From Brevibacillus sp. DP1.3A (GTDB taxonomy: Bacteria; Bacillota; Bacilli; Brevibacillales; Brevibacillaceae): a stretch of 64,000 bases of DNA. The DNA lies in NCBI RefSeq assembly GCF_013284245.2, contig NZ_CP085876.1:4199001-4263000 (forward strand), given 5' to 3'. Positions 7,357 through 57,850 of this stretch are shown piece by piece (within the stretch, counting starts at the first letter, position 1; each line of letters begins with the position of its first letter). The position numbers and the translations under genes are program-made. The notes under the pieces are model-generated. The model worked only from the letters and a program-made list of their open reading frames with translations. It made no database searches and was not told the origin of the DNA.

Positions 7357-7412
7357 ACAGAGGGGGAAAAACGGGTACACCAAAATAATGGTGCCCATTT
7401 CTCCTCCTCTGT
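7357..7412 (-). terminator. riboswitch expression platform: intrinsic terminator before gcvT
   Basis: On the minus strand ACAGAGGAGGAGAAA can pair with TTTTTCCCCCTCTGT, followed by TTTGTTTT. The 5' arm is also the last part of the second aptamer (GGACAGAGGAGG). Glycine binding should therefore hold that arm in the aptamer and let transcription continue, making this an ON switch (inference from known gcvT riboswitches). Confidence 0.7.
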
Positions 7413-7610
7413 CCTTGGTACCTGAGAGTTACCTTGCGAATCACATGGGGATTACTTCCTTCCCCACTTGCAAGTTTCCCCTTTGGTGGCTCGTGTGAGC
7501 TCTCTCCAGAGTTGCGTCCAGTAGAGGTACTTTTGCCTGAGAGATTCACCGTTACCGGCTTGCTCCTTCGGCGCTGCAAAACGTTCAAGCAGTCTCTCCC
7601 TACTACCTTC
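7395..7610 (-). promoter_or_regulatory. tandem glycine riboswitch (two gcvT-type aptamers)
   Basis: The minus strand shows two glycine aptamers in series. The first has GGGAGAGACTG, GAAGGAGCAAGCC, then AATCTCTCAGGCAAAAGTACC. The second has GAGCCACCAAAGGGG and ends with GTAACTCTCAGGTACCAAGG and GGACAGAGG. The doubled CTCTCAGG core is diagnostic. A terminator platform and gcvT follow directly, so the element should turn on glycine breakdown when glycine is high. Confidence 0.95.
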
Positions 7611-7832
7611 ATTCGCGGTTGTTTCATGGTCATACATAAGTTTTTGCTATCATTTCCATACTAATGGATGTACTACCTCTTTATCCTACCATGAGAGTCC
7701 GAAGTTGAAAATATACAAATTAACAGTCAGATTCAGAAAAACTTAACAAAACACATTGACAATAGATAAATGTTCAGTTTTTAGACATTAACCTTGAAAG
7801 TTATGGCAGAGCTATGTAAAGGAGTATCTTAT

Positions 7833-54716: not shown

Positions 54717-55760
54717 ATGAACTTGAAACTCTTTTTCTCATTAGTAGGCGGGAGCATGCTGTTAGCTCTTTTCGCCCACTATTTTTCTGGAAATGAAATG
54801 CTCCAATTCGTCACGGCTTCTCTTGCCATCATTTTTTTTGCGGCTTGGCTCGGAAAATCGACAGAGAGCGTCGCCCATTATGCTGGGGACCGAATCGGCG
54901 GCTTTCTTAACGCTACCTTCGGAAATGCCGCAGAACTCATTATTGCCTTTTTTCTGGTGAAAGAAGGCTTGTTCGATATGGTCAAAGCCTCTATTACGGG
55001 TGCGATCATCGGAAATATGCTGTTGGTTCTTGGCTTGAGTACGTTACTGGGCGGTCTCAAATACAAGGAACAAACCTTCAATAGCAGGCTGGCAAGTCAC
55101 AATGCTTCGCTGATGACACTCGCGATCGTAGCTTTGTTCATACCGGCCGTCTTCATGTTCGATTTGCCTATGATCAAGGTGGAGATCATCAGCATCGTCA
55201 TCGCCAGCCTGCTCATCATTGCCTACATTTTGTGGCTCATCTTTTCAATGATTACACACAGCGATTTTTTATCGGATATCGAGCCACAAGAAAGTGATGC
55301 AGTTTGGTCAAAGGGTGTCTCACTCTTGATGCTTGCTGTCTCCACTTTTTTCGTTGCCGTTGTCTCGGAATGGCTGGTAGAGGGTGTACAGCATGTCTCC
55401 GAATCGTTAGGGTGGTCGGAGTTATTCGTCGGTGCTTTTGTCATTGCGATCATCGGGAATGCCGCAGAGCACAGCGCTGCCTTGCTTTTGGCACTAAAAG
55501 GACGCATCGGTGCAGCAGTTGAAATCGCGATCGGCTCCAGCCTGCAAATTGCCTTGTTCGTAGCCCCTACTCTCGTCATCATCAGTCTCTTGCTAGGCAA
55601 TCCTATGGACATCGTGTTCACTACCTTTGAATTGGCTGCGATCGGAGTTGCTACCTTTATTACCATTTCCATCACTCGGGATGGCGCCACGAACTGGTTT
55701 GAAGGCGTACTTCTCTTGACGGTGTATGTTATTTTGGGTACGGTCTTTTTCTTCGCGTAG
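54717..55760 (+). CDS. calcium/proton exchanger (Cax family)
   Basis: 347 residues, eleven helices, in two pseudo-repeats. The paired GNAAELI motifs are seen as [20 protein letters not shown] (about 63-82) and [17 protein letters not shown] (about 248-264). Exports Ca2+ or related cations in exchange for protons; close to YfkE. The gene stands alone with a perfect terminator. Confidence 0.9.
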
Positions 55761-55816: not shown

Positions 55817-57151
55817 TTACCAGATACCCAGCATTTGCAGGAAAACGGCGAGAATCGCGATAGGTGCTACATATTTAATCAGGAGCAGCCAAATGATAAA
55901 CATGCGTTTGCCCAGAGAAGTATGCGCCCCCAGCTCGTTTATCAAGGTTTCACGCTTCATTTTCAGCGGAACGAAGATCGCAATGAGCAGCGCTCCCAAT
56001 GGCATCAAGATATTACTGACCAAAAAGTCCATCGCATCAAAGATAGATTTGCCGAACAGCGTAACCTCGCTCCATACGCCGAATGACAAAGCCGACGGAA
56101 CACCAACGATAAAAATCAACAGACCAATCACCCAAGCGAGACGTTTACGCTTCGTTTCGTCCCCCTTTGCAAGAGAAGCTACGATAATTTCCATCATCGA
56201 AAAAGCCGAAGTCAATGTAGCGAAAAGGAAAAGAGCCAAAAAGATTAACAGAAAAATGCTACCGAAGGCAATTTGTTCAAACACAGAAGGCAGTACGATA
56301 AACAGTAATCCTGGCCCTGCTGTTGGTTCTACTCCAAGGGAGAAGACTGCAGGGAATATCGCCAAACCGGCAAACAGCGATACGAGCAGATTCAAACTGA
56401 CAATCGATCCAGCAGAACGAACCAGACTTTCGTTTTTGGCAAGGTACGAGCTGTACGTGACCATGACGGACACCCCGACGCTCAGCGCGAAAAAGGATTG
56501 ACCCAATGCGTACAGGATCGATTCAGCAGTCAGCTTGGAAAAATCAGGACTCAGAAAGAAGGAAACGCCCTCCATAGCCCCATCCAACGTCAAGGAACGA
56601 ACCATCAATACCATGAATAAAAGGAACAAACCAGGCATCATGTACTTGTTAGCAGACTCAATTCCACTCTGTACGCCTCTCGCTACTACCCATGCGGTAA
56701 TGAGCATGAAAACCAACTGGGCAACTACTGCCCCAACAGGATCACCGATAACGTCACCAAATACTTTATCATAAGCTGGCCCTTGCAATTGACCAGTAAA
56801 CCCGCGAAGAAGATAACTAAGAATCCAGCCCCCCACCACACTGTAAAAGGACAAGAGCAAGAAGCAGGTGATCACTCCAAGGCGACCAATCCAATGCCAG
56901 AGTGAGCCAGGCGCAATTGTTTTATACGCACTGATCGCCTCTTTTTGTGTACTGCGTCCGATTGTGAATTCTCCTAGCAACAGCGGAAGACCAATTCCTA
57001 GCGTAAAGATGATGAATAGCAGAAAGAACGCTCCACCACCGCTCGTTCCAACCATATAAGGAAATTTCCAAATGGCCCCCAGTCCAATTGCCGAGCCTGC
57101 TGCTGCCAAGATGAAGCCGAGCCTGCTCGTCCATTGTTCGGCTTGTTTCAT
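55817..57151 (-). CDS. Na+-dependent neurotransmitter-family (NSS) amino-acid transporter, probably for phenylalanine or aromatic residues
   Basis: 444 residues from ATG 57151, whose GGAGGG lies 11 bases upstream; a GTG three codons earlier is too close to it. The N-terminal NSS signature [26 protein letters not shown] (about 8-33) contains the sodium and substrate site region of TM1. Predicted eleven helices and the short length match bacterial MhsT-type transporters of hydrophobic amino acids. Two tandem T-boxes upstream read TTC (Phe), so its cargo is probably phenylalanine (inference from regulation). Confidence 0.88.
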
Positions 57152-57194: not shown

Positions 57195-57450
57195 ATACAA
57201 AAAAACCCGCCCCAAAAAGGGACGAGTTATTATTTCTCGCGGTACCACCCTACTTAGACATCCCCTATAGGCGATGTCTCGCTTCGTCATTGATAACGGG
57301 AATGACCCGGACTCTCCTACTGGCGGCGCCTGCGTTCAGAGGTCAGCTCAAGAGTGAATTCTACGGGGCTTACATCAGGCTGCTCTCAGTCTATGGCAGC
57401 CTTCCCTGTCATGTAGCAGGTCCGTTTACTAGTCTCTTTCCTTGCTTGTT
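57195..57450 (-). promoter_or_regulatory. T-box riboswitch, proximal copy (phenylalanine specifier)
   Basis: The minus strand shows stem I, a specifier loop GTAGAATTCACTCTTGAGC with codon TTC (57356-57358), then the T-box AGGGTGGTACCGCG (57238-57251) and a terminator AACTCGTCCCTTTTTGGGG with a T run (57200-57227). TGGT in the T-box bulge pairs with an ACCA tail, i.e. discriminator A as in tRNA-Phe. Unloaded tRNA would stabilise the antiterminator. Confidence 0.88.
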
Positions 57451-57482
57451 TCTATAATTCGATTGTTGGGCGTCTTGCGAAA

Positions 57483-57740
57483 ATAAAAAAAACCCGTCCA
57501 AAAAAGGGACGAGTTATTCGCGGTACCACCCTGATTAAGTGCACGGGATACAGATTCCCTACGCACTTCTCTCCATCATTGATAACGGGAATGACCCGAT
57601 TCCTCCTACTAGGCAAAAAGCCATTAAGAGGGCTGCTCAGGAGGGAATTCTACGGCGCGCGCTTCAAAGCTGCTTTCAGTCTAAGGCAGCTTCTCCCTGA
57701 CAAGCGGTGATTCCGCATACTAGTCTCCGTCATTGCATTT
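57483..57740 (-). promoter_or_regulatory. T-box riboswitch, distal copy (phenylalanine specifier)
   Basis: Second complete T-box, with the specifier loop GTAGAATTCCCTCCTGAGC and codon TTC at 57646-57648, T-box AGGGTGGTACCGCG at 57519-57532 and a terminator of AACTCGTCCC and GGACGGGTT with a T run at 57487-57516. Both T-boxes share the same specifier and bulge. Confidence 0.88.
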
Positions 57741-57751
57741 CAAAATTAATA

Positions 57752-57765: not shown

Positions 57766-57850
57766 TTAATTTAATATAAATATACGAAATAGGCAAGTAC
57801 TTTTTCATTCAACAAAATGAAAAGCGAGGATAATCGCCGCTCTCCTCGCC

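Follow-up and report, generated by a model that had tools for sequence, protein, structure and literature searches.

Two tandem phenylalanine T-boxes related to pheS leaders precede an NSS transporter gene in Brevibacillus

The locus described here, found in the genome of Brevibacillus sp. DP1.3A, raised the question of which tRNA is sensed in front of a gene of the sodium:neurotransmitter symporter (NSS) family, and of what two T-boxes in place of one might mean for the control of that gene. The window, that is, the whole stretch of 64,000 nucleotides that was analysed, was compared with Rfam by cmscan. Two RF00230 matches were obtained on the minus strand (Table 1). Each spans the entire model (1-219 of 219) and exceeds the gathering score of 93, and no further T-box reached the gathering score in the 64-kb window. 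A chance origin of the matches was ruled out by their E-values. A single NSS gene was preceded by two complete T-box units of the same specificity, each with a terminator of its own. This is the arrangement claimed in the preliminary description, which had been made from the letters of the DNA, and the boundaries given there (57195-57740) proved correct to within a few bases; the covariance-model check of both leaders that it had proposed returned the two full-length matches with the bit scores listed in Table 1. Beyond the NSS gene lies a convergent gene of the Na/Ca-exchanger family, and the NSS unit is for that reason probably monocistronic. The same genome contained at least 25 T-boxes at E <=0.001 (150 of 181 candidates scored), and a second tandem pair, with the Leu specifier CUC, was located before leuA (G000:C1:5630374-5630919; gene and specifier by eye). 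Elsewhere in the window, at 7399-7611, two tandem glycine riboswitch aptamers were seen, an ordinary arrangement with an apparent gcvT and two gcvP genes downstream (names assigned by eye).

Table 1. Features of the NSS locus and its two leaders, in positions of the window.
Feature	Position	Strand	Evidence or remark
Weak promoter-like element TTGCCT-17-TAAATT, upstream of T-box 1	57768..57796	(-)	by eye, alignment
T-box 1, promoter-proximal	57502..57742	(-)	RF00230, 104.1 bits, E 6.6e-22
T-box 1 specifier UUC (Phe)	57645..57647	(-)	sequence; site calibrated on pheS leaders
T-box 1 bulge UGGU, fits tRNA-Phe ACCA end	57525..57528	(-)	sequence and tRNA genes
T-box 1 intrinsic terminator hairpin	57491..57515	(-)	T-run; -11.4 kcal/mol as isolated hairpin
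T-box 2, gene-proximal	57215..57451	(-)	RF00230, 116.6 bits, E 4e-25
T-box 2 specifier UUC (Phe)	57356..57358	(-)	sequence; site calibrated on pheS leaders
T-box 2 bulge UGGU	57244..57247	(-)	sequence and tRNA genes
T-box 2 intrinsic terminator hairpin	57204..57228	(-)	T-run; -15.7 kcal/mol as isolated hairpin
Ribosome site GGAGGG of the NSS gene	57165-57160	(-)	sequence
NSS transporter gene	55817..57151	(-)	ATG at 57151
Na/Ca-exchanger family gene	54717-55760		convergent with the NSS gene

Both T-boxes carry AGGGTGGTACCGCG with a TGGT bulge. The Rfam alignment and the terminator hairpins indicated that antiterminator and terminator are mutually exclusive by sequence, with the CUCGUCCC strand used by both, and a terminator hairpin built on the 3' strand of the antiterminator was present in 36 of the 37 NSS T-boxes of Brevibacillus. 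The canonical antiterminator was not the lowest-energy structure in folds of the isolated pieces, which is expected because the tRNA is absent from such folds, and the result counts as no support. Upstream of T-box 1, a CTTGC element was conserved in all the tandem genomes aligned (14/14), and the spacer between T-box 1 and T-box 2 was poorly conserved among them; the combination of a poorly conserved spacer and a conserved upstream element suggests that the two T-boxes lie on one transcript. A consensus promoter scan gave one match against 1.0 expected from shuffles, and the promoter-like element of Table 1 was missed by it. In one tandem locus (L039), an insertion of about 100 bases separates the two T-boxes.

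The specifier was assessed by comparison with pheS leaders. The pheS gene of the same genome is itself preceded by a T-box (L022; gene by eye), and the specifier loop reads GAA-UUC in this leader as well as in both NSS leaders. PheS was additionally taken from 25 further genomes, all of which had a T-box core upstream (25/25), and UUC stood at the equivalent site in each of the 26 pheS leaders, the own genome included. The phenylalanine specifier TTC that had been read earlier in both NSS leaders falls at this same site. Among the 26 Brevibacillus genomes analysed, UUC was the specifier of 37/37 NSS T-boxes, and the UGGU bulge was likewise present in all 37, although the search pattern itself fixes UGG. 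Two copies of tRNA-Phe(gaa) were identified in the own genome among the pattern-search matches. Both have the discriminator A (A73), which pairs with the U of UGGU, in agreement with the initial proposal that the bulge fits an A discriminator.

The 26 Brevibacillus genomes each contained one NSS match at E <=1e-60, 77-100% identical to the transporter of the window. Strain DP1.3A itself falls in the brevis group of the genus, and the closest transporters found among named species, at 97-98% identity, come from B. porteri, B. fortis and B. formosus. The orthologous transporter was preceded by two Phe T-boxes in 14 genomes, by one in nine and by none in three. Two gates are consequently not essential, as 12 of the 26 genomes lack the tandem. 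The T-box counts were derived from a motif scan, and an Rfam cross-check agreed with it for the window's own pair, for all 10 named loci (12 matches in seven of the 10) and for 11 of the 26 genomes (10 matches in eight of the 11, four of these 10 being below the gathering score); the counts for the other 14 genomes come solely from the motif scan. In L054, L059 and L060 the T-box has been lost, and a remnant consisting of CCGCGAGA and CTCGTTCCC before a T-run was recognised by eye, corresponding to the 3' half of the antiterminator and a terminator-like hairpin in front of the transporter gene. DUF1507, glsA and the exchanger gene adjoin the NSS gene in the five Brevibacillus loci displayed.

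When the T-boxes of the own genome were aligned, the NSS pair matched each other best and then the pheS T-box (77.0, 64.5), and the remaining 22 scored no more than 21.0. A quick tree of 96 T-boxes, whose branches are long and many of whose forks are weak (of 93 forks, 14 starred and 43 open), grouped the 37 Brevibacillus NSS rows (SH-aLRT 96) and placed them together with the 26 pheS leaders in one group (63 rows, SH-aLRT 97). Eight Phe T-boxes that precede NSS genes of other families fell outside the pheS group. The strings AGGGA and GACTG occurred together in the early leader of 26/26 pheS leaders and 35/37 Brevibacillus NSS T-boxes, and in none of the 22 other own T-boxes or the 11 NSS T-boxes from elsewhere. 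The NSS leader is thus like the pheS T-box leader in its UUC specifier and in these stem I strings, and differs from it in the base after the specifier, which is a purine in 24/26 pheS leaders and 14/37 NSS T-boxes. No T-boxes are closer to it than the pheS leaders, and it therefore probably arose as a copy of a pheS leader that was later doubled, where we infer the direction of copying to have been from pheS to the NSS gene. The agreement of the tree with the AGGGA/GACTG marker indicates that NSS genes probably came under Phe control on two or more separate occasions. In a further tree, composed of the 37 NSS T-boxes and the own pheS T-box, the T-box 1 clade contained 12 rows and the single T-boxes of L045-L047 (98/98), and the T-box 2 clade contained 12 rows (100/99), which the single T-boxes of L048-L050 joined weakly (66/53; 80 in the 96-T-box tree). 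Because the first and second copies fall into lineages of their own, the duplication is older than the species in the 12 tandem genomes, and the same separation over 12 genomes ruled out a strain-private duplication. The copies of the other two tandem genomes (L055, L058) were not assigned to the T-box 1 or T-box 2 lineages by the tree, and the first copy of L058 grouped with the single T-box of L057 (99/93); an independent duplication in these two genomes is possible.

In the class, 299 genomes were searched for NSS genes, 172 of which had a match at E <=1e-90, and 40 upstream regions were hand-picked from the higher-scoring rows listed that lie outside the family. A T-box match was found in eight of these 40 regions, all with UUC (by eye), and the other 32 gave no T-box match. 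The Phe T-boxes of other Bacilli before related transporters have a different stem I type. One region upstream of an NSS gene (L091) contains a partial tandem, in which two antiterminator/terminator cassettes share a single Phe stem I ahead of them. In another genus of the same family, T-boxes preceded three of 12 NSS genes (five genomes), all with CUC, i.e., Leu (by eye). These Leu T-boxes (L062, L063, L064) stand before NSS transporters 68-69% identical to that of the window (68.2%, 302/443, for the Leu-type transporter compared), and they grouped with the leuA T-boxes of the DP1.3A genome (SH-aLRT 89 in the 96-T-box tree). The tested neighbours were not found around the Leu-type transporter in the one genome checked (G028).

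The assignment of the transporter to the NSS family, made at the outset, was upheld by profile matches to PF00209 (E 1.9e-57) and NF037979 (132.7 bits against a cut-off of 50). An MhsT-like length had also been remarked on, and MhsT (PDB 4us3) was the best solved relative by sequence (E 1.9e-106), with 194 of 435 aligned residues identical (44.6%); the two proteins share the family and a similar length. The TM1 Asn and the TM6 motif GMG were taken as criteria for an MhsT-type protein. The TM1 Asn (chain position 33), which we take to participate in the Na1 site, was replaced by Ala in 13/13 Brevibacillus rows used, and GMG, the Met of which presumably contacts the substrate, was replaced by GVS in the Brevibacillus group. 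Given this Ala and GVS, the transporter of the window is treated as a homolog of MhsT and not filed as MhsT itself, and since both sites differ, the MhsT substrate data may not carry over to it. Among 65 aligned members of this NSS group, the TM1 site was Ala in 62 (Val, Thr and Asn in one each), hinting at a changed sodium site in the group. The TM6 Met position was Val in 21/21 rows from Brevibacillus and from other transporters with Phe T-boxes (including two Brevibacillus rows in which the T-box was lost) and Ile in 3/3 rows of the Leu lineage, which count as one lineage. Val was also the commonest residue in rows without a T-box (26/41), and therefore it fails to separate Phe transporters.

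As judged from its relatives, the protein is probably a hydrophobic amino-acid symporter with Phe among its substrates, and it would most likely import Phe alongside further amino acids of hydrophobic or aromatic character in a sodium-coupled manner. We give somewhat better than even chances to the reading that the transporter is a broad importer of hydrophobic amino acids, for which a shortage of Phe is merely the signal that switches it on. MhsT is broad, accepting Trp, Tyr, Phe, Val, Leu and Ile (PMC9350835), and the same suggestion has been made for published NSS genes, which carry Leu, Trp or Phe T-boxes (PMC2494555). The 68%-identical relative from the other genus of the family, with its Leu T-box, fits a broad importer too; however, it is non-syntenic in the one genome checked and may be a paralog of other specificity. 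Against a merely signalling role, Phe specifiers were seemingly gained two or more times in related NSS lineages, a pattern suggesting that the uptake of Phe is what counts most.

The two T-boxes of the pair differ in the base 3' of the specifier, which is C in T-box 1 (57644) and A in T-box 2 (57355). This base was C in 15/15 T-box-1-type leaders, A in 12/15 T-box-2-type leaders and C in five of the seven remaining Brevibacillus NSS T-boxes; the 26 pheS leaders had A in 23 cases, G in one and C in two. A purine at this position is a preference of T-boxes and not an invariant. A review describes it as conserved and records that tRNA binding by the glyQS leader of B. subtilis was abolished when the base was changed, whereas for an ileS leader the effect was 2.4-fold (PMC7583486). 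The Stem II S-turn strand of T-box 1 reads UAA for GAA in nine brevis-group genomes and is kept as GAA in the other six T-box-1-type leaders. Isolated terminator hairpins ranged from -11.4 to -12.6 kcal/mol in the 15 T-box-1-type leaders and from -15.7 to -16.9 kcal/mol in the 15 T-box-2-type leaders. The features of T-box 1 would be expected to weaken tRNA binding, and the differences suggest that the first gate is the weaker one, but they are small in number and inherited, and the C is common to several other T-boxes. Placed against the transporter gene on the tree, the pyrimidine after the specifier showed seven changes but only one independent pair, which left the comparison without statistical power.

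We regard as unlikely the explanation that T-box 2 alone senses the tRNA and that T-box 1 is a decaying copy acting mostly as a leaky terminator. Decay would account for the C in place of a purine, the altered S-turn strand of the nine brevis-group genomes and the weaker terminator, and loci with a reduced number of T-boxes are common among the genomes of the genus. Yet T-box 1 has kept its specifier and bulge in every one of the 12 tandem genomes of the lineage, three genomes retain a T-box-1-type leader alone with the same C, and this C occurs in four of the 25 own-genome T-boxes, T-box 1 included (by eye). Equally tentative is our own proposal that the pheS-derived pair is unequal by design. 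Gate 1, with a conserved pyrimidine under the codon-anticodon duplex and a weaker terminator, would be a weak sensor and gate 2 a strong one, such that Phe starvation would have to go deeper before the transporter answers than before pheS does; as part of the same proposal, a related leader in three species would work as a Phe T-box without Stem II. In the alignments, these species had a sole Phe T-box lacking Stem II (L048, 1225-1440; L049, 2973-3183; L050, 1234-1445), with scores of 81.9-90.6, under the gathering score of 93. Such leaders may be either dying or an exception to the presence of Stem II.

It is very improbable that the specifier was misassigned and that a different tRNA is sensed, for although neighbouring frames of specifier loops are readable in principle (PMC7778990), a misreading is ruled out by the UUC that 26 pheS leaders share at the equivalent site, and the nearest own T-box of the pair, each other aside, is that of pheS. 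Serial gating of an NSS importer by Phe T-boxes is, as a whole, the best explanation of the locus, and we hold it with good confidence. According to this model, transcription would probably start upstream of T-box 1, leaving two attenuators in series to be passed. By default, each T-box would fold into its terminator. Uncharged tRNA-Phe would pair at two places, its GAA anticodon binding the UUC specifier and its ACCA end binding the UGGU bulge, and the paired tRNA would stabilise the antiterminator; once both gates were open, the NSS gene would be transcribed. Because both gates must open, the uptake gene would be on only when much of the tRNA-Phe is uncharged. It is plausible that tandem T-boxes tighten control.

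Through these leaders, a shortage of phenylalanine is linked to a clade of sodium symporters that have not been characterised. One orthologous gene provides a natural series with two, one or no T-boxes, with C or A under the codon, and with or without Stem II, which lets the questions of tandem T-boxes and of Stem II be tested directly. According to a review (PMC7583486), it is still not known how tandem T-boxes act, and such T-boxes are reported to be enriched in Bacillota (PMC12452182). In the T-box and MhsT literature searched, no description of this Brevibacillus leader was found, and its absence from print is not claimed; no NSS gene was seen among the tandem T-boxes in part of Table 2 of PMC12452182. 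The closest published parallel is the B. cereus group, in which Phe, Leu and Trp T-boxes precede NSS genes and T-boxes spread as modules (Wels et al. 2008, PMC2494555); the same article mentions four cases in which a sodium symporter has a T-box 300-480 nt upstream of it. Both systems have an NSS gene behind a Phe T-box, T-box duplication and insertion as modules, and Leu or Trp versions on paralogs. The Phe T-box of Wels et al. is related to the tyrS leader, whereas Brevibacillus has two copies of one that is akin to the pheS leader. The locus also resembles the tandem T-boxes of Bacillota that belong to trp, leu, ilv, thrS and others (PMC12452182), in that two complete T-boxes serve one operon. 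Regulation of NSS genes by T-boxes has been published already, as has the tandem arrangement, and the Brevibacillus leader combines both, with a pheS-type origin.
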